NCBI RefSeq assembly: GCF_910592395.1
Contig: NC_088315.1
Location: 4,032,501-4,096,500 of the forward strand
Direction of reading: 5' to 3'
Length of the DNA stretch: 64,000 nucleotides
DNA from: Lineus longissimus
Lineage: Eukaryota; Nemertea; Pilidiophora; Heteronemertea; Lineidae
Shown: one piece after another, positions 4,451 to 62,200 of the stretch
Position numbering within the stretch: position 1 is the first letter of the stretch
Layout of the letters: each line of letters opens with the position of its first letter
Position numbers and translations under genes: made by a program
Notes under the pieces: generated by a model
Seen by the model: the letters and a program-made list of their open reading frames with translations, nothing else
Databases searched by the model: none
Told to the model about the DNA's origin: nothing

Positions 4451-6253
4451 GTAAGTGTCTTATGTTCCTGTCTTAGTGGAAATTACATGAAAGGCACCCG
4501 ACTGCTCTGGGATGACTGCAGATAAGTCATGGTTGTCCGCTCGTTCACCAGTCGACGCATAAAACGTCAGCTTTGACCGGGGAGCTACCGGCGAGCGGGT
4601 CGCCTTAAATTATTAATCTTGCATTTTGCATTAGCTCTCCATAACTGTACCGGTACTTAGTAAATAGTGTGTACTTAAGGTCGACCAACTTGCAATTCAT
4701 TGCGCCACATGGATGCCGTGCTACCGAAATAATTCAAATTGGGCACCCAGTGCTGTGTAATCGATGCTTTATACAGTAGTTCATATTTTATCTAGTTTTA
4801 AAAATCTCAAAATTGTTATTCATCTCTCGTTCCAGTATCATTAGATTCCAAGCGGCATAGGGCAACATTTATAAGATACGGTCGCGATGCCAGCCACGTC
4901 AGTCAAGAAAATGCCTTAGAAACCCATTTAACAACGCCTAGTAAACGAAATACGGAGGGCTACATGAGGTTTGGTAGATCAGTAAAGGATCCACAGCCCG
5001 CACAAAATGTCGAAAATGTCGATGTCGAAAATACCAAAAAAGAAGAAGAGAAAAAAGCCATACCGTCAACAGCCGTTGATTCGGAGCAAAAACAAGAGAC
5101 GACTGCGGAGGATGACAAGGCGAAACGATACATGCGGTTCGGCCGGAATAATTATATCAGGTTTGGGAGGGAGAGCGAGGAAGCTGATGATGATGAGATA
5201 GATGATGCTAAGAGGTACATGCGCTTCGGGAAGAAGGATGATGCCAAGCGTTATATGAGATTTGGTAAAAAGAATCTTGGTCCAGTGGCGGAGGAAGAGG
5301 GTGAAGAACAGAAACGCTATATGAGATTCGGCAAGAAGGATGGGTCTGATGATGCTGAGAAAAGGTACATGCGGTTCGGTAAGCGGTACATGCGGTTCGG
5401 TAAACGCGAAGACGACTTGGAAGAGGATAAGCGCTATATGAGATTCGGAAAGAAATCGGATGATGAAAAACGGTACATGAGGTTCGGAAAGAAGGACGGC
5501 GAGGAACAGGATGAGAAGAGGTATATGAGATTTGGTAAGAAGAGTGATGAGGATGAGAAAAGGTACATGAGATTCGGTCGGGGTGATGAGGACATGGATG
5601 CTGATAAAAGGTACATGCGGTTCGGTAAACGCTACATGCGGTTCGGTAAGCGGTACATGCGGTTTGGTAAGCGCGACGAAGAAGACGCGAACGAGGGTGG
5701 TGATGATGAGAAGAGATACATGAGGTTCGGTAAGCGCTACATGAGGTTTGGTAAACGTGATACGCCCATTGACGAAGTGCGGAAACGAAACGTCCGGTCT
5801 GTTGATGAGAGTAAAGCCGAGAAGGCCGCACACATGCGTTACAGGAGGTCCGAGGGACCGGATGGGTTCGAAAGAGACGCCCGATACATGCGGTTCGGAC
5901 GGAACCCCAATGGTGCTACGGTCGACGGATATATTCGTTTCGGTCGACTGTTAGACGGCGAGGATAGCGACGAAACAGAGGAGACACCTGCAAAGCGTTA
6001 CATGCGTTTCGGTAGAGACTATCTTCGTTTTGGTCGCCTCCTTGACGGAGAGGAGGAGTCAAGCAATGACAATCAAAACTCTAGTCCTGTACAGAAAAGG
6101 TTCATTCGCCTTGGTAGACTATTTGGTGGCTTAGGCGTAAGCAAGGAGGAATTACAACGGCGATACCTCCGAAATAACCGCGATCGGGCCGGCGGGTACA
6201 TGCGGTTCGGCCGATCAGAGCCAGCTGGTGGTTACATGCGATTCGGAAAATAA
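4300..6253 (+). CDS. FMRFamide-type neuropeptide precursor (YMRFamide multi-copy prohormone)
   Basis: Two coding exons, 4300-4450 and 4836-6253, joined at a phase-1 GT..AG intron (gtaagt donor, tctcgttccag acceptor), give 522 residues. Exon 1 encodes a signal peptide MYILYLVALLAGQAIA followed by a short spacer with two cysteines (ALCSDPK, MVLCDAF). Exon 2 starts VSLDSKRHRATFIRYGR. It then carries 20 copies of YMRFG flanked by KR, K or R cleavage sites, two YIRFG (NNYIRFGR, DGYIRFGR), one YLRFG (DYLRFGR) and one FIRLG. Two remnants have lost the amidation glycine: HMRYRR and YLRNNR. The Gly before each basic site is the amidation donor, so mature products should be YMRFamide, some N-terminally extended (for example NTEGYMRFamide). 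Spacers are Asp/Glu-rich, usual for such prohormones. The protein should enter the secretory pathway of neurons and be cut by prohormone convertases. Some arrays lack spacers (KRYMRFGKRYMRFGK). The last copy ends in GK directly before the stop. A possible polyadenylation signal AATAAA lies at 6842. Family membership is certain; the species-specific gene name is not known to me. Confidence 0.95.
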
Positions 6254-24700: not shown

Positions 24701-25265
24701 TCGCTCATTTGCTTCGTTGGTTGACTGCAGGAGCAAGATGGGCAGTAGCTCGATCAATCCAGTTCGTCTGAGATGTTCCTCTTCTTTTTCATATGGGAAC
24801 CACTACAACTGCAGAACTATTTCTCTTCGGGGTCTGTCATAGGCCTTGGCCCCAAACCGTAGCTCCTTTGCAAGTAGCAGGGCACATATACCATTAATTT
24901 GTATTGACACAATGAATATAGGATTGAATTAGCCAAGGTAGCCTCTGCACATTGAAAGGTTGACCTTCTGAACTTCTTCAAACATAAATTTGTGCAGGCC
25001 AATATGAATGGAAAGTAGTATTGCTTTTGCTTTGAACATCGGTAGTTTGAGGTAAAAAAAAGTCCAATTTCTGGGTTTGTTTTTTGCAGTAATGAAAGAG
25101 CTGACTTTTAAAATCGCGCTTGGATGAACAGCGAGTACCTACATGGAAACAACATAAGGGTCACCACACCAGGTCCGGGTGCCGTACCAATGATTACTAT
25201 TTTTCGGTTAAGTATTTTCGATCAGTGCAATGTTTTAATACTTTCGATTGTTTTTTTCTTTACAG
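18761..25265. other. Gene-free stretch upstream of the myristoylated-protein gene
   Basis: No supported coding exon. It contains the duplicated palindromic 20-mer at 23697 and 23941, C-rich low complexity near 24450, and two loosely related segments near 24511 and 24682 (shared TAAAATCGCT and GATGGGCA strings). The end, just before 25266, is probably a 5' UTR intron: a long T-rich tract and ttacag precede the exon with the start codon. Confidence 0.45.
23697..23960. repeat. Duplicated 20-mer containing a 14-bp perfect palindrome, 244 bp apart
   Basis: The same 20 bases (AACC, then TAGATACTAGTATCTT) occur at 23697-23716 and 23941-23960 in the same orientation. Each contains the palindrome AGATACTAGTATCT. 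The enclosed 224 bp has no ORF of interest. Identical ends around a short segment could be the termini of a small non-autonomous element or a chance duplication. Confidence 0.5.
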
Positions 25266-25274
25266 ATCGAAAAA

Positions 25275-28221
25275 ATGGGGAATGAACAGTCAAAAAAAAC
25301 TGAACCGCTGCCTCACATCAGCCGACGGGACTACCACGCACCCTTCCCACCTAAACCAAAGATAGACTACAAGGACCCCAGGAACTTTGTTCTGCCGAAG
25401 GAACTGCCAACAAAGACATTGCGGCCAGTAAAGAAGAAGTTTGAACCGATTCCGGGCATACCGGAAGAGGAGGAAAATGAGGAATACACTGATACGGAGA
25501 TTGACCGGAACAGTAATCTTGGGAGTGTACAAAATCTGAACTTCATCGGGCTGAATGGATCAGTCGAGTCCATCGATAAACTGAACAGTGTCGCGAATGG
25601 TTTTACTCTTGGGAATGGGGTGGTGTTAAATGGACATGCTCCAGTGATTGGGAACGGGGATGTGGCGGGGAGGCAGAAGAAGAAGAATCCTGCGCCCCCG
25701 CCGCCACCGCCGCCGCCGCCGCCGCATGTTCCCGGCACAGATGTACACTATCCACATCCGTATCTTACCTCACAGAGTAACTCTACCTCAAGCCTGAACT
25801 CGGCACAATCTCAAGCACAATCACACACGTCTTCGAATCATAGCGCAGACGACAAAACAAAGACAATCAACGGGAATCAAAACATGAGGCGATTCAGTGA
25901 CGGCATGAAAAATGAACTCATTGAGCAAGTCCGTACAAGAATGAAGAGACCCCCAAAGAAACAGGAACCAATCGAAAAGCCGAAAACGCCGCTGGAAATA
26001 TTTCAAAGTGAACTTGCGTCTGTTTCTGCTCGAATGGAAGAGAAGCGAGCCAGTAGATCGGATTGGAATGCTTTTGAAAAGAAACCACCGCCTGTAATTG
26101 ACGTTGGACATAAGTTTGCTGATCAGAATAATGATGACGTCACACTTGGAGCTGCAATTCAAATTCTTCCGCTCAACAAGCAGCCGAATGGCCGAATCTT
26201 TCGCAAGAAAGACGAACCTGCTGTTGCCCACGCGCGGTCACATGATTGGGTCCCTGAACATGATCTTGGGTTCGAAGAAAACAAAGACGATGATCATCCT
26301 ATTGTTGTTACGAATCTGAGCACAGATGACGAGGTCATGTATCGTTCAGGTTTGCAATTCAAAGCTAATGAGCCCAGCTTAGGCAGCGCGAGGCATTATC
26401 GTAGCAGGTCAGCTGAAGGCGAGGAGAGGACACCACGGTCTGAGAAGAGAGAAGAACGGAAATCTTCCTACAGCAAATACTCCAACAGTTTACGGGCCTT
26501 TAAGAGAAACATGCAGCAGATGTTCAACAGTCTGGGCAAGAGTTCTATTGGCTCCAAAGAGCGCGGCTCCGTACTTGATCTGTTTGAGGACACGGCAAAG
26601 TTAGAGGACTTGGACGATGAGCTGGCGTCGCTGGATGAGATTGATGAGGAACCTTTAGATTTGCGGGGATCGAGACGGGTGACCTTCAGTCCGCAGCCAG
26701 CGCAGATGAGAGAGGTCGTGTATTATCCAGGAGAAAGGGACCATCGGCGCTTCTCCGAAGGGTATTATCCTCCGATGTACGCCCCAAGACGACCTCCTCC
26801 TTTTGACCCCTGGTACCATGAGGCGATGCATTATCCGCCGCCGCCGTACCGATATGTGGTGCCGGAGGGACCCGCAATGTACGGGCCTCCTCCAGATCGG
26901 AGACTCCTTGAAATGGATTACTATCACCAGATGGAGGACTTTCACTACTACGACCCTAACAGCCCAAGTGGGATGTTCTACGGGCGATATGGAGCATCAA
27001 CCACACCACCAACGGAAAAGAAGAAAACGAAAGGAAAGCTGTCCCTGCGATCACGCCGGCGGAAGTTATTAGAGGAAGCTAGACTAAAGCGCCAGCTAGC
27101 GGAGGAGATACTCAAGAGAGACATGCGAGAAAGACAACGAATGAAAAATGATAAAATACAGAAAAAGGAGTATAATGCAAATTGGGAAATGTTGAGGGAC
27201 GATATTCAGTATGATTCTGGATTAGTCAGCTCGCGGATACGGCCGAACAAAATGGCCAAGGAGCGCATTCATCATCAGCGTAGCCGGTCCGCACCGGCGG
27301 CCACCATGGCAAGGGAAAATTCGGTGGATTCTTATTGGGGAGTGCTTGAAGGGGATGAGGGTGTCATGCGGGAAGGACATGCGCGAAACGTAAACTTCCC
27401 TGGTCGGACTGGTTACAATGAATTTGAGGTCAGGGAATTTAAATATGGCGGGGCTGAAAGAGACCAGGTGGAGGAAAGATTAAGTGGGGATAGAGAAATC
27501 GAGGATGACATTACAGGTCTGAAAAACTCGCGCAGACGCAGTCATGCAAAGAAACAAAATGGTGACGTCATATCCAGTTCTTCAGACGAAAATAAACCTC
27601 CGGCAAAAGTTTTAAAATCTGTGCTAGACGAATTTGATGACATTATCAACAGCGTTCCAAGGGATTACTCTTCGTCGAGTGAGGACGAAGCTGGGGGAGA
27701 CGGTGGACTTGGTTCTGTTGTCAAAACTATAAACACTAAAACGGAAAAATACGGGAATCAACGAGAACCTGGCGGAAATGAGAAGTAAGTGCATGTATTT
27801 CTTATGGCTATCGGTGGGGTTTTTTGTGTCCCTAGGATGAAACGCGATCCTGAATTTTTATCAGACCCAACACTGGTCGTGAAGACAATGCACTGTGCAA
27901 TATCACCAATGAATGCTAAAAGTACGGACACGACAACGATCGTTGTGAGAGCGTTTTGTTGCGTCCCACGATTGTCAGGCGCCTGTTGTGATTCCTAGGC
28001 GAGTGACTACGCCTTTGACCAGAGGGAGGAATCCATCCACAAGCTGCCTGGTCAAGTCGGCTCTTTTGCTCCACCTTGCATAGGCATCGGGTACACCGAA
28101 TCACGTCTCTCTCTCTGTCTATGAAGATTGATAAACTTTTGAAGGTGACCCTGTGCTATATCTTCCTCGGATTCTGACCATTTGATACTTTTCTCTTTGC
28201 AGGGATGACGTTGCCCTTTGA
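25275..28221 (+). CDS. Unidentified N-myristoylated, proline-rich, low-complexity protein
   Basis: Exons 25275-27784 and 28203-28221 give 842 residues. The exon opens at 25266 after a ttttctttacag acceptor, so the upstream in-frame ATG at 25248 is intronic and the start is MGNEQSKK. That is a good N-myristoylation signal (Gly2, Ser6, basic residues following), implying membrane association. Visible segments: a Pro tract of about 10 near residue 142; four similar Arg/Ser kinase or 14-3-3-like sites (RRFSDG, RSRSAEG, RRFSEG, RSRSAPA); an acidic stretch near 434-462; RRVTFSP near 466, followed by a Tyr/Pro-rich region to about 580; a strongly basic, probably helical segment 582-632; and Ser/Asp/Glu-rich patches near the C terminus. 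Splicing at gtaagt (27785) to 28203 replaces the stop TAA with KDDVAL and a TGA at 28219-28221. Without splicing the protein is 837 residues ending GNEK. I do not recognise an enzyme domain. A cortical or cytoskeletal scaffold is a guess. Confidence 0.8.
27785..28202 (+). other. Last intron whose donor overlaps an in-frame stop codon
   Basis: The codons GAG AAG TAA contain the donor AA|GTAAGT. The acceptor is tttctctttgcag at 28202. Intron length is 418 bases. Retention gives the C terminus ...NEK; removal gives ...NEKDDVAL. The reading frame was checked by hand on both sides. Confidence 0.6.
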
Positions 28222-30158: not shown

Positions 30159-30239
30159 TCACACGGAGACCAGCAGTCGGACCCCTTATAGCGTCTAAAC
30201 TGCATTTCCAACTGACTTATAGGCCTACATGCAATATGC

Positions 30240-31325
30240 ATGGCAAATCATAACCGAACGAACCGTCCGCAGAATTTACGCATTCACGTCAGCATGATTG
30301 AGGTTCGGTTGGAATCGTCAGCGTCAACTCTGACGGACCAAGAAGGATTGGTCGTACCGCTCACCAAGGAAGTCCTCGGCTTCATCCAAGGCTACGTCAT
30401 GTCGGGAGTTCTCGCGATGGGCATCTGCGGCAACCTGCTCTCCTTCGTTGTGTTCCTGCGGACTAGGCAGCGTGCAGATGCCTGCGTCCAGTACCTCAGC
30501 TGCCTCGCTCTCTCCGACACCGGCGTGATCATAACCCGCGGTGTGACTGAATGGATCAACTCTGGGCTCGGCTACATCACGAATGGGAAAATATCATACC
30601 ACCTCATGTCCTACAACACTATATCTTGCAAACTGGTTTCTTATTCACAGCAAGTCACGATGTCAATCTCTGCATGGATGATTGTATCTTTTTCTGTGGA
30701 ACGCGCTTTTGTCGTCGTCTTTCCACTTAAAAGATCCATCATCACATCATATAAAAGAAAAGTCGTCATATTTTCGGTCTGTTTTGCTATGGTGACCATA
30801 CCCATTGATCGGTTGGTTTTAATGGACATCATCGATGCCAACCCAAGGTCTTGCTTCTATACAAGAGTAGAACCACTGGTGGGGGCTATTCTTTACCAAT
30901 TCGCAGTAGTTGTCTACAACTATGTGCCATGCATCGTCATATTTTGTTCAAATTCTTTGATAATTGCCGAGATTATAAAATCGTCAAGGAACAAGCAAGT
31001 ACGAAAAAATGCTGTAGGTTCAAAAAGCGAAGGTAAAGTGCTGTTTTCTTTAATGTTGGTATCAACTCTCTACGTCGTACTCGAAATGCCCTTTTCATCG
31101 ATTGCCTCCTATATTTTCATGAACCGACAGCATCTATCAAGCGAAGAGGCTGCGTTTGCCTATAACGTGGCCTTATTCCTAATGCAGATAGGTTCTTTGA
31201 ATTACTGCATTAACTTTATCGTCTACGGCTGCACCATGGAGTTTTACAGGGAGGAAATGGCCAAAATGTTTTGCTGGTTTTCGGGTACTTGCAGAAGAAG
31301 ATGTCGAAATAGAGACCTCGTCTAA
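30240..31325 (+). CDS. Rhodopsin-family (class A) peptide-type GPCR, orphan
   Basis: A single-exon, 361-residue seven-transmembrane receptor. TM1 contains GN at residues 64-65, TM2 LALSD with Asp93, TM3 begins after Cys130, TM6 has Pro284 and TM7 ends NFIVY (325-329). Cys130 and Cys205 (extracellular loop 2) can form the usual disulphide. The N terminus is about 48 residues with an NRT glycosylation sequon at residue 5 and no signal peptide. Helix 8 and a basic, Cys-rich tail (CWFSGTCRRRCRNRD) follow. Two hallmarks are altered: the DRY motif is ERA (154-156) and NPxxY has Phe in place of Pro. The overall look is of the large expanded sets of neuropeptide-type receptors in lophotrochozoans; the ligand is unknown. 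The start at 30240 is the first ATG in frame; Met19 is the alternative. A possible polyadenylation signal AATAAA lies at 31725. Confidence 0.88.
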   Translation: MANHNRTNRPQNLRIHVSMIEVRLESSASTLTDQEGLVVPLTKEVLGFIQGYVMSGVLAMGICGNLLSFVVFLRTRQRADACVQYLSCLALSDTGVIITRGVTEWINSGLGYITNGKISYHLMSYNTISCKLVSYSQQVTMSISAWMIVSFSVERAFVVVFPLKRSIITSYKRKVVIFSVCFAMVTIPIDRLVLMDIIDANPRSCFYTRVEPLVGAILYQFAVVVYNYVPCIVIFCSNSLIIAEIIKSSRNKQVRKNAVGSKSEGKVLFSLMLVSTLYVVLEMPFSSIASYIFMNRQHLSSEEAAFAYNVALFLMQIGSLNYCINFIVYGCTMEFYREEMAKMFCWFSGTCRRRCRNRDLV

Positions 31326-56200: not shown

Positions 56201-59200
56201 CACCCTCATGACGTAACAATCACGGGCTACCCACGGATCTCGACAAAGTTTTGCATTGTGCGATAGAGATGCGACATCAAATTTTTCTTGACATCATTTT
56301 GACATACTCTCTGAGCATATTCTAGCCTGAATGCGGAGTTCTATCAAGGCAATATCAGATATGCAACTCTGCAAATCTACTTGATCCACAAAATGTCCTG
56401 TGTGTTTCTCAAACCTGTCACCCTGTCATCATACTTCTCAATTATTTTCTTTTCAGGTGGCTTCTACATGTACATTGAAGTCTCCTCTGTGCCGATCGGA
56501 GACAAGGCCAGGCTCCTCAGCCCCCAGATCGACGGCAGTGGACCCTACTGCCTGACCCTCTGGTACCACATGTACGGCTCTACCGTCGACACCTTGAGCA
56601 TATACTTTGCCAGCGGGCCTAATGTCGGTCAGGCGCTGTGGACCAAGACCGGGACCCAGGGGAATAAGTGGATGCAGGCATCGATTCAGTATACACCCAT
56701 CATTGGGCAAGCTGTAGATAAGGTTGTGATTGAAGCCATCTCAGGTCGAACCTTCGAAGGTGACATTGCTGTTGATGACATCAGCATGGTGCCCGGATCC
56801 TGTGCCGGCCCAAGCGTCCCCACCCCGACTGTTGACTGCGACTTTGAACAAGGCCTCTGTGGCTATATCCAGGATACAGCTGATGTCTTTGATTGGACAA
56901 GACAGGCTTCGGCTACTGGATCATCAGGAACGGGACCGACAGCTGATCATACGTATGGTACCGCTCTTGGTATGTTGAATATTCTTTTCATGTCTTCTAC
57001 TATTCCTGTCAGATTCAGCACGATGAGTCCTCGGATTGCCTACTCAGAGAAACTGATTCCCGTAAGTCTGAGAGATGAATCTGGAAATCGAGATATAAGC
57101 TTAATGGGTCCTTAGTCAGTTAGGCAATGCGCTGAACGATCCTAACTATGCCGCTCTGCATTTCTGGAGGCAAACAAAGATTACAAAACTTCACTAAACA
57201 TAGTTGTTGTATATTATTTTTCAGGTAACTACATCTATATTGAGGCATCCTCCCCAAGAACCACCGGCGACAATGCAAAGATCTTCACCCCGCTCATCGC
57301 CACATCAGCAGCTGGCAACTGCCTCCAGTTTTACTACCACATGCTCGGGGTGCAAATCGGGACCCTTAACATCTACACAATGGGCGGCCTCGCGGCACCA
57401 ACACAACCAATCTGGTCCAAATCAGGTGACCAAGGCAACCAGTGGATTCTGGCTTCCGTCGATCTCCCGCTGAATACTCAGTTCGAGGCTGTGTTTGAGG
57501 GAATTGTTGGGACGGGCTACCAGGGAGACATATCTATTGACGACGTCAAGCTCCTTAACAGACCATGTGCAGTACCAGGTAGGGACCTTTCCTAACTCTT
57601 CTCATTCTCAATAGGCCTAGCTGATGTTGTCGAAGGAGACCATTAGTCCAAGGCCAATGCATGTGTTCCGAGATTTTTATCTGGTAGTGAGAGGTTACTC
57701 GCTATGAAAGCTGGTAGTGTTTTTATTATGTTTCGAGTTAGATATTGTTCTGTGTATGAACACATCCGTACGTTTTATCGCATGCACTAACCTGCACTTT
57801 GCTTCATTGGCTTCAGCTGTACTGATGCCTTCTTTTGCGTGAAGAAATAAAGGGGTGTTGATACAACTGGTGTTTCATGAAGGCTTCTCACCGGTAGTGT
57901 TGGATTGTGTTGGCCCGCGTTAATTCATCTATACCTCTGCATTGATCAGCTGTACCGATGCCTTCTTTTGAATATGAAGCAAGAAGTCATTTGAATAGCT
58001 GGCCAATTCTGAGGAAAGACTGCTTTGACTTAAGATTATATGCAATTCCTTTTTAAGATTTGAATAATATCAGATGGCTTCTTCGTTTATCCGCGATCTC
58101 TACTACCATCAGTCCCCTGCATCAATCAGCTGTGCTGATGCCTTCTTTGAAAATAGATATCAAGAAGTCATTTGAAGAGCTGGTTGATTTAGGGGCAAAG
58201 CGGTATGCTTTTATACTTTCTGAGCAATCTGTGGAGCAACTGCTATACCTTCTGAATTCGTCAGCTGTGCTTGATGCCTTCTTTACTATATTGTATAAGA
58301 AGTCATTGAAAGAGCTGACCAGCTCTGAGGTAATTACATGTTTCCGCTTGCTTTTTAAGCCAGCCATTCTCACCAGCTTCCGCTTGCTTATTCAGCTAAC
58401 CATTCTCATGAGCTTCTGCTTGCTTCTTCAGCAAGCCATTGTCACCAGCTTCCACTTGCTTCTTCAGCCAACCAACCTCACTTTGCCACACTGCATTTGG
58501 CAACCTCTGCATTGGTCAGCTGTCCCGATGCCTTCTTCTCGAGTAAAAAAGAAGTCACTTGAAGAGCTGACCAATTCGGGGACAATTTCAGTGCTTGAGT
58601 TTGCTTTTTTGGCTCACACATTGGCAACAAACTTATGATGTGTAGCTTTCTTTGCCAGTTCGGCCTACATACCCTATTGATCCACCAGCTAGCCCTTGCG
58701 TTGGTCAGCTGTACTGATGCCTTCTTGTTAAGATGTATTAAGGAGTCATTTGAATAGCTGAGCAGTTCTTGGGAGAATCCGAGCTTCAGCTTGCAGTATT
58801 TTCCTTCTGCTTATTTGACTGCCTCTTTTGCTTCAATACAGTACAGGAATGTAACTTTGCAAGATTTTGTCTCAAAGCTTATGCTCATTTGTTCTTAACC
58901 CTCGCATTGGTCAGCTGTACCAATGCCTTCTTTTGTTATTCAACAAGAAGTCATTTGAAGTGCTGGCTAGTGCTTGGGAGAATCGATTGCTTCTGCTCTC
59001 AGATCTTGTGATGTTGTATTTTCGGCCTCCTTAGCTTGCACTCTCTTTGCTCTTAATCATGTATCACTTGCCCTTGTGTTGGTCAGCTGTACTGATGCCT
59101 TCTTCTGATGATGTTACAAGAAATCGTTTGAAAAGCTGGCCAATTCTTGGGAAAATGCAACACCTCTGCTTGCTTATTGACTAAGAAAGTAGCTTAACCA

Positions 59201-62200
59201 ATATTTTGCATTCATGTTCTATAACTTACACCTTTTACCCCTTGCATTGGTCAGCTGTACTGATGCCTTCTTCTTCTAATGTAACAAGAAGTTATTAGAG
59301 AAGCTGGCCGATTCTAGGGAAAGACACTGCTTCAGCCAAAATTTCTGTTGTGCTGCCTCTCTCTGGTCCATTCATTTTGCTTATGCCTGATTGTATTGTT
59401 GTGTCGAGTAAGTTAGCCTTTGTATTATTTTAATCACTGCCAAGCTGTATCTCTTGAATTGGTCAGCTGTGCTGATGCCTTCTTTTTATGATTAAATGAG
59501 GAGTCATTCGAAGAGCTGGTCAATTTGGGGGGAAACTCTTTACTCAGCAACTTTCAATGTGCTTTCTTGGATCCTCATTCCTTCTCTGTTACAGCTGAAG
59601 TGTCCCCTGCGCACCAAATACTTATCAAATGTATCCCATGCAGTGGTCAGCTGTACTGATGCCTTCTTTTCTCAATGTATTAAGAAGTCATTTGAATAGT
59701 TGATCACTTCTTGGGAAAGTTCCATGCTTTGACTTGCGGTGCTTTTTCATGTTGTGAAATGCTCTTCCTGTGCTATTATGCCTCAAGTCATGTTACCATT
59801 GGCCTCTGCATTTGTCAGCTGTACCGATGCCTTCTTCTCATAGATGACAAAGAAGTCATTCGAAGGGCTGACCAATTCAGGGGCAGTCACATCCTAGGCT
59901 GCGTGTCCGTAGACGTTTCCCTCGTCGGCTTGTGTCAATTCTGTCAATTCTGGAGAGAGGGAAATGTGTTTTGTGGCAGAATGCTTAGGAACACGTTTAA
60001 CTCTTATTGTAACTGTTGCACCTCTGCTTTGGTCAGCTGTGCTGATGCCTTCCTGCTCATCTCACAGGAAGGCTGTTGGAACAGGCTGGCCATTTCTGGG
60101 GAAATGTCAAGGAAAAACAAATCAAGCAGTACATATTGATATCCCCGAGAAACTTTCACTCCTCAGCAGTTCAGCTGTGACGATGCCTTCTTAGGTCATA
60201 AGCAGCCATTGTTGTAGTTGGTCTTCAGAGGGGTAGTTGAAGGATTTGAACAGAGCCAGTAAATAAGAAACGGAGCAGGTCATGCCTGAGCATGCTGAAA
60301 AGAAGATGAGTGCCAACCTTGGAAAGACTGCTGATGTTGCCTGAATTGGAGTCCCGATTCAGCAATGCCTCCTAATAGTTCAGCTGTACCAAGCCTTCTT
60401 TTAGAAGACGAAGAGAGAGGTCATGGTTCACACCTGAACTATTGAGATGCCAATACACCACATCCTACTTGCCGGATTGACAGACCTCGGCCTCTGAACA
60501 TGTCAGCTGTACCGATGCCTTCTTTACAAATGAAATAAGAAGTCCTTTGAACAGTTGACTTGTCTGGGTCGCATTTGCACCGCTTTTTCATCATATGCTT
60601 TATCTCTGCTTCCACTGTCCCCTACTGTGAACTACTAGCGGATTTAGGGTGTGTTATGAGCATTTCGTGACCCCTCCTCTTCTCATTCCTTGATTTGCCA
60701 CTGAACTAGTCAGCTGTACCGATGCCTTCTTTGCAAGTATTGATATAGGAAGTCTTTTGAACAGTTGGCTGGTTTGGAGGCAGTTTTCACCTAATCTGTT
60801 TTTTTGTGGCGTGACTCAGTTATAAGCACGTCAAATGACATGACATGCTATGAATTAATGGTACCTTAATATGTCATCAGCCTTGTTTTCTGTATTTCCA
60901 AACTGGTCAGCTGTGCTGATGCCTTCCTTTGCATGTGATAAGGAAGTCAGTTGAACAGCAAACTTGTTTGGAGAGAATAATCAACTTTCAGGATGGATGG
61001 ATTCTGATGCCTACATGTATTTGCCAAAGTAGTGGTCAGCTGTCCCGATGCCTTCTTTTGAAACTAACCAAAGAGGTCACTTGACTGCTGGCCAGTGCTT
61101 TGGCTGAAACGACTTGGCTAAGTGGCAGTATTCTTTATTGCTATAATATCATCTTAGAAGAAATCTCGAGGAGACTATTGTTTCTCGCTTCACAGTAGCA
61201 TATCACGGATTTCAAAGGTGTTCAAGTTGAGGTTTGTTGGGGATGTAGAATACTTAGTAAGAACTTACCCCTTTAGAAATATCTTGATTAGCTAGTATCA
61301 GTTTCATGTGTCTGTCTTTCAATGGTGAACCTAACCAGAAGCCGCTTTTGCAACATCAAGCAATCATAATAGTCACTGTACCACTTCACATTTTCTAGGT
61401 GACTGTGACTTTGAAAATGGCCTCTGTGGCTGGAGCAACATCGCCGGCGATGACTTTGACTGGCAACAAGGCAAGGGACTCACAGCGAGCCAGTTCACTG
61501 GCCCGACAATCGACCATACCTTAGGCACGGCCAATGGCACTTACATGTTCATTGAGACGTCCGCACCAAGAGTACAGGGTGACAAGGCATGGCTGCAATC
61601 GCAGCTGATGTCGGCCACGCCCAGCAATGGCCGCTGCTTGCACTTCTGGTACCACATGTATGGCTCTGCAATCGGGAGACTACAAGTCATTTTGAAACAG
61701 GTAACTTAACTTTAATAAAGTTCTCTCATCACAAGCTGCTGGAAGAGTTCTGTAGGCATTTTTGTCCTTTCCATTTGGCCTGTTGCCATACTTGAATAAG
61801 ACAGTCCAACAATTTCATGTCTCTTGCATCTCTCGAATGTCCTGAGATGACGTATTTTGTTGCAACTCAATCTCAAGATCCACCCAAAAGTTTTAGAACT
61901 TGAAAACCTATTGACGTGACCATTCATTAGAAAGCTCTGGATGAGCACTTCCTGCCGGTGCATTGATTTTATTGGGGATAATCTACATATTTTCCCTTGA
62001 TAATTCCAGGGTTCTTCCAACACCACCATCTGGATCCTTGGAACTGAGAAGGGAAACCAATGGAACTCAGCCCAAGTGACTGTCACCAGTACCACTGACT
62101 TCAGACTCCTCATTGAGGGGATGCGTGGAGCTGGATTCCAAGGCGACATTGCGATCGATGATGTTTATTTTACCAGTGGGTCTTGCACGCGTAAGTGATA

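Follow-up and report, generated by a model that had tools for sequence, protein, structure and literature searches.

Conserved invertebrate microRNA families are usually low-copy. What, then, are the nineteen similar hairpins that lie on one strand of a single intron of the nemertean Lineus longissimus? We analyzed a stretch of 64,000 nucleotides (nt) from this genome (hereafter the window; contig NC_088315.1, positions 4,032,501 to 4,096,500), in which an intron of a gene encoding MAM repeats carries the hairpins, called here U01 to U19. As judged from the sequence, the intron is very probably a cluster of 19 genes for MIR-1989 precursors, produced by old and repeated local duplication, whose spacers and loops have drifted apart.

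Nineteen hairpins in one intron

The motif TCAGCTGT is present 19 times on the plus strand, and all copies are located between 57813 and 61043, within the intron. Over the whole window and on both strands, it was counted 22 times for 2.1 expected, a number reached in 0/100 shuffles. An exact GATGCCTTCTT follows in 15 of the 19 units (U07, U13, U15 and U18 differ), and U04 carries a 1-nt insertion ahead of this second block. A covariance model (CM) trained on the same 19 units recovers all of them by construction; its search of the 64 kb detected no twentieth unit and no copy lacking the seed. The other 19 matches of the model were the same hairpins on the minus strand (18) and one chance match (E 2.7). 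The original prediction of nineteen same-strand hairpins, with an invariant 5′ end and a strongly conserved second block, is thus borne out. Because the units were gathered via the 8-nt seed, its invariance in 19/19 units is partly due to the selection of the rows; this concern is partly answered by the model, which detected nothing in the window that folds alike but lacks the seed. The units display nine distinct 22-nt arms with a single common seed, and they are irregularly spaced, at 123 to 255 nt. They are given below with their CM scores and the z values of the folding test.

57798..57881, + strand: hairpin U01, weakest fold, 5′ arm from 57813; CM 47.7 bits, z −1.5
57930..58013, + strand: hairpin U02, 5′ arm from 57946; CM 96.9 bits, z −4.2
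58110..58194, + strand: hairpin U03, 5′ arm from 58126; CM 85.5 bits, z −5.8
58245..58329, + strand: hairpin U04, 5′ arm from 58261, 1-nt arm insertion; CM 76.4 bits, z −4.9
58500..58581, + strand: hairpin U05, 5′ arm from 58516; CM 83.5 bits, z −3.7
58689..58772, + strand: hairpin U06, 5′ arm from 58705; CM 86.3 bits, z −3.7
58895..58977, + strand: hairpin U07, 5′ arm from 58911; CM 82.3 bits, z −4.7
59067..59150, + strand: hairpin U08, 5′ arm from 59083; CM 86.8 bits, z −5.1
59235..59318, + strand: hairpin U09, 5′ arm from 59251; CM 89.3 bits, z −4.7
59447..59530, + strand: hairpin U10, 5′ arm from 59463; CM 85.5 bits, z −4.1
59631..59714, + strand: hairpin U11, 5′ arm from 59647; CM 90.6 bits, z −6.0
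59799..59882, + strand: hairpin U12, 5′ arm from 59815; CM 83.4 bits, z −4.2
60017..60100, + strand: hairpin U13, 5′ arm from 60033, 20/22 to a mollusc sequence; CM 64.2 bits, z −4.4
60155..60232, + strand: hairpin U14, 5′ arm from 60171, weak fold, short loop; CM 60.0 bits, z −2.1
60364..60448, + strand: hairpin U15, 5′ arm from 60380, arm deletion; CM 50.9 bits, z −5.4
60487..60568, + strand: hairpin U16, 5′ arm from 60503; CM 77.1 bits, z −3.7
60694..60779, + strand: hairpin U17, 5′ arm from 60710; CM 72.9 bits, z −4.5
60891..60973, + strand: hairpin U18, 5′ arm from 60907, 20/22 to a mollusc sequence; CM 66.2 bits, z −5.3
61020..61102, + strand: hairpin U19, 5′ arm from 61036; CM 72.8 bits, z −5.9

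Each unit, taken as 90 nt, was folded and compared with 200 dinucleotide shuffles, a check that the original prediction had itself proposed. For 17 of the 19 units, all but U01 and U14, no shuffle was as low (0/200), with z values between −3.67 and −5.97. The median unit folds at −31.3 kcal/mol; among 6000 overlapping 90-nt segments taken elsewhere from the window, 0.5% attain this energy. In the minimum-energy folds, the 22-nt 5′ arm has 14 to 21 paired positions, and the 14 basal nt upstream of the arm contribute 9 to 13 in 18/19 units. The paired arms and the basal pairs that had been predicted are present; the loop slightly exceeds the usual 13 nt that had been given, the gap between the arms being 9 to 17 nt in 19/19 units with a median of 15, given a 22-nt 5′ arm. 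MicroRNA hairpins are expected to pair at least 16 nt between their arms and to have a loop no shorter than 8 nt. The array agrees with this: at least 16 of the 22 nt are paired in 16/19 minimum-energy folds, while U07 and U08 have 15 and U19 has 14.

Folding also depends on the strand. The sense strand folds better than the antisense strand in 18/19 units, by −9.2 kcal/mol on average. This bare figure overstates the effect because the same difference is −3.6 in single-base shuffles of the units and −4.6 for the 60 top-ranking hairpins found elsewhere on the plus strand.

The conservation is unevenly distributed along the hairpin. Mean pairwise identity is 1.00 at nt 1–8, 0.59 in the short centre and 0.92 in the GATGCCTTCTT block; it is 0.66–0.67 in the 3′ arm, 0.52–0.53 in the two halves of the basal stem and 0.39 in the loop, which is the order expected for a 5p microRNA. 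In an alignment of the units built from sequence alone, the named 29-pair helix is kept in 89.8% of the cells, and sliding the partner by 1–3 columns reduced the paired cells to 33.5–50.4%. Two-sided compensatory changes occupy 32 cells versus 9.6 ± 3.0 in shuffles (0/500), which do not remove shared ancestry; 29 of the 32 are held by the basal stem. In the pairs that involve the 5′ arm, changes are mostly on the 3′ side and often lead to G-U. A nearly fixed 5′ arm, with the compensatory changes mostly elsewhere, is what would be expected if a single strand is the product and the remainder of the hairpin need only fold. Together with the unrelated spacers described below, the folds and the covariation agree with the architecture of primary microRNAs (pri-microRNAs), and not of a transposon or satellite, that was initially proposed.

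Similarity to MIR-1989

The resemblance of the 5′ arm to miR-1989, put forward in the original prediction, was supported by comparison with published sequences. Schistosoma japonicum miR-1989 (UCAGCUGUGUUCAUGUCUUCGA; PMC4752461) is identical to all 19 units over the first 8 nt, and agrees with the 17 indel-free units at 15–17 of 22 positions. The mollusc candidate Tgr-nmiR-35 of Tegillarca granosa (ucagcugucaugaugccuuccu), which PMC3972184 reports as novel and scores at 0.8, matches U13 and U18 at 20 of 22 positions, ten units at 19, four at 18 and one at 17; the two units with indels score 13 (U04) and 12 (U15) when aligned ungapped. Over nt 9–22, the 17 indel-free units share 9–12 of 14 positions with Tgr-nmiR-35 and 7–9 with S. 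japonicum miR-1989, and the ungapped values for these two sequences are 5 and 4 in U04, and 4 and 2 in U15. The seed and 5′ end UCAGCUGU are found in 19/19 units, and the same 8 nt begin both published sequences. The array further has a 22-nt 5′ arm and shares the GAUGCCUUC core with Tgr-nmiR-35.

According to the passages retrieved, MIR-1989 is common to flatworms and spiralian taxa (PMC6468455) and was lost in coleoid cephalopods (PMC9699675); L. longissimus belongs to Nemertea, within Spiralia. The seed, the similarity beyond the seed in 17/19 units and the spiralian host all point to the same family, and support the assignment of the putative pri-microRNAs to MIR-1989. The retrieved portions of the literature on mir-1989 contained no multicopy MIR-1989 array. 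Four Rfam candidates, mir-605, mir-9571, mir-944 and MIR6445 (E 0.07–0.9), were rejected as generic stems, with 22–26 bits for gathering scores of 98–100.

Age, predicted processing and competing explanations

All hairpins have retained one seed, while the spacers have diverged. No BLAST match was found between any of the 18 internal spacers, and a z above 3 in global alignment was reached by 6/153 spacer pairs versus 171/171 hairpin pairs. The lack of BLAST matches shows that a homogeneous repeat unit including the spacers, as in a concerted array of the miR-430 type, is not present. Outside the 5′ arm, the mean identity of single units to the others is 0.36–0.63, and it is a little higher between neighbouring units (0.59 at lag 1) than between distant ones (0.54 at lag 6). 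We infer that the copies are old, that they arose via local duplication and that nt 1–8 were retained under selection. The spacer between U04 and U05 contains, at 58342–58481, a 36-bp unit repeated 3.9 times, with no BLAST match in the other 17 internal spacers.

The hairpins would be transcribed with the same-strand MAM-repeat host gene, or from a promoter of their own. Drosha would cut each of them at the U of UCAGCUGU, and Dicer would then yield a 22-nt duplex with the 5′ arm as the guide. Since the 19 predicted guides share nt 1–8, they would address one target set by standard seed rules. The target sites would be ACAGCUG, at best ACAGCUGA, and the copy number would translate into a higher dose of the single seed. 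Assuming this Drosha cut and 2-nt overhangs, the star predicted from the alignment is 22 nt long in 16/19 units and 21–23 nt in 19/19, which is partly by construction. In single folds it is 22 nt in 15/19 units (U01 29, U04 21, U13 24 and U15 26) and 21–26 nt in 18/19. Star reads would be expected near GAAGUCAUUUGAAnAGCUGGCC. A CNNC motif 16–18 nt past the Drosha cut is a supportive, although not required, microRNA mark. With this distance fixed before the count, CNNC starts 16–18 nt past the predicted Drosha 3′ cut in 10/19 units for 3.0 expected (P 1.5e-4; random intron positions, 20,000 draws, 10 reached in 0.015%).

Several observations weigh against an array of 19 microRNA precursors. U01 (z −1.5, 15/200 shuffles as low) and U14 (z −2.1, 7/200) barely beat their shuffles, and U06 has a poor basal stem in the minimum-energy fold, with only 3 of the 14 basal nt paired. 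The single-fold stars of U01 and U15 are oversized, and the 5′ arm of U15 is shifted. The case is weakened by these fold or arm defects in U01, U14, U15 and U06, and some copies may be decaying. CNNC is also raised farther out, up to 8/19 at 24–26 nt, so that its position is suggestive and not sharp. The basal UG at −14, another supportive but non-required mark, is found in 4/19 units for 1.8 expected from the intron TG rate of 0.096. The CNNC, strand and shuffle tests moreover count related copies as independent. The Rfam scan gave no match at gathering score. We take Tgr-nmiR-35 to be a miR-1989 from its sequence; it is not so called in the retrieved text of PMC3972184. Finally, dosage is a role that we infer: the simplest function would be a larger supply of a single guide, and the expansion probably preserved one seed for this.

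Could another type of element account for the same sequence? Head-to-tail repeats in a single orientation are what a satellite or mobile-element array would give, with a unit that folds by chance. It is, however, the hairpin alone that recurs, between spacers that share no BLAST match and at irregular distances; BLAST of the intron against the rest of the 64-kb window gave no match, and neither the compensatory changes nor the match to a known microRNA fits such a repeat. We reject it on the spacers and the lack of other copies in the 64 kb, and regard it as very improbable. The array also contains CAGCTG, an E-box core, which is invariant and palindromic, as in a cluster of DNA-binding sites that would form an intronic enhancer with incidental hairpins. 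The conservation nevertheless spans about 22 nt, the 3′ arm tracks the 5′ arm with G-U tolerated, the basal stem covaries, and the sense folds beat the antisense folds beyond composition. On structure and covariation we reject an E-box array, to which we give almost no credence.

The remaining alternatives accept the microRNA genes and differ in their number or use. The working genes might be limited to a few of the hairpins, such as the central U02–U12, the others being decaying duplicates or too poor substrates; we consider this rather unlikely. Outside the 5′ arm, U01 and U13–U19 have indeed diverged further than U02–U12, which lie nearer to the rest (Mann-Whitney P 4e-4, calculated on rounded means for a grouping picked after the values were seen), and the folds of U01, U14 and U15 are weaker or altered. 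Yet nt 1–8 are intact in 19/19 units despite a non-guide identity of 0.36–0.63, U13 and U15–U19 fold with 0/200 shuffles as good, and the model search of the window found no seedless copy, though the units were gathered by seed. It is unlikely, and more so, that the same microRNA array was kept for a burst, a switch resembling maternal clearance as in fish miR-430. Such a role would recall the miR-430 tandem arrays, which clear maternal mRNAs in early development (PMC10417697), and S. japonicum miR-1989, reported as mainly expressed in the female ovary region (PMC4752461). However, the miR-430 arrays are described as homogenised by concerted evolution (PMC10417697) and the Lineus array is not, and reports on oyster haemocytes, fluke and snail place miR-1989 in other settings.

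A cluster of 19 MIR-1989 precursors remains the preferred explanation. We propose a stronger form of it only tentatively: a nemertean array of great age, each of whose 19 copies is kept by selection without homogenisation, and in which gene number sets an exceptionally high single-seed dose, possibly for one developmental switch. If a 19-fold single-seed expansion with the hairpins alone preserved is true, it would offer a natural test of what leads animals to multiply a microRNA gene, be it dose, speed or robustness. The nine distinct guide arms would allow reads to be assigned to groups of copies.

Host gene and comparison with known arrays

All 12 plus-strand open reading frames (ORFs) chosen as MAM candidates, from 37369 to 63686, scored with Pfam MAM, and the right half of the window is therefore a plus-strand MAM-repeat gene. 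The interval initially given for the array coincides exactly with one of its introns, in phase 1, which separates two MAM repeats. The donor is CAG/GTAGGG at 57579 and the acceptor TTTCTAG/GTGAC, with the intron end at 61398. The first 5′ arm lies about 230 nt into the intron, of which about 300 nt extend beyond the last hairpin.

57146..57578, + strand: open frame with the upstream host exon, in which a MAM domain ends; Pfam MAM E 8.6e-27 at 57146–57595
57579..61398, + strand: phase-1 intron of the MAM-repeat gene, holding the array; 3820 nt, GT..AG borders, frame across the junction P-G/D-C-D-F
61399..61700, + strand: downstream host exon (start of the next MAM repeat), 3′ end approximate; from in-frame translation only

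Upstream of the array, the host MAM frame contains two perfect 8-mer matches to the seed, ACAGCTGA, on the plus strand at 56876–56883 and 56939–56946; they are separated by 63 nt and encode DTAD and PTAD. The window has just one more plus-strand ACAGCTGA, at 59591, within the array. Self-targeting of the host transcript is a possible explanation of the two sites in the MAM frame, as is a by-product of a MAM coding motif.

Other genes were recognized in the left part of the window. The ORF 4802–6253 (plus strand) encodes an FMRFamide-like neuropeptide precursor in which the motif Y[M/I/L]RFG occurs 23 times, mostly as RYMRFGK; it shows 99% identity, over 99%, to the annotated L. longissimus FMRF-amide precursor. 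For the ORF 25239–27788, an uncharacterised protein of L. longissimus gives a match of 100% identity that covers 99% of the ORF. An uninterrupted ORF at 30216–31325 (plus strand) encodes a rhodopsin-type G protein-coupled receptor (Pfam 7tm_1), with 41–47% identity to named L. longissimus matches (TRH-receptor-like, FMRFamide-receptor-like and opsin-like). A near-identical L. longissimus entry was not found in the searched set, the best named match being at 47%, and this receptor may have no entry of its own there.

The array is a further, unusually diverged case of the known large tandem microRNA arrays represented by miR-430 and Sfmbt2. Like the miR-430 and miR-427 genes of fish and frogs, described as tandem multicopy arrays usually at one locus (PMC10417697), it gathers many copies at a single place. 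These genes belong to a family other than MIR-1989, and they evolve in concert as repeat subunits in which spacers and promoters are included, whereas in Lineus the spacers are unrelated and the hairpins alone persist. The intron-10 cluster of mouse Sfmbt2 is likewise a large, lineage-specific microRNA cluster in one intron; its repeat units contain B1 and CA/TG repeats and are reported in mouse and rat only (PMC3212979). In contrast, the Lineus array derives from an older family, and no common spacer unit was found. For another nemertean, Notospermus geniculatus, the retrieved text of PMC11114477 reports small RNAs from 63 genes that belong to 29 known families, and states that L. longissimus has at least 28 novel microRNA genes in common with it; a nemertean MIR-1989 expansion may already be tabulated in the supplement of that paper. 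Within MIR-1989 itself, the retrieved text of PMC4752461 lists one locus in S. japonicum, as compared with 19 in one intron here. The Lineus array is striking for its copy number in MIR-1989 and for the absence of homogenisation.

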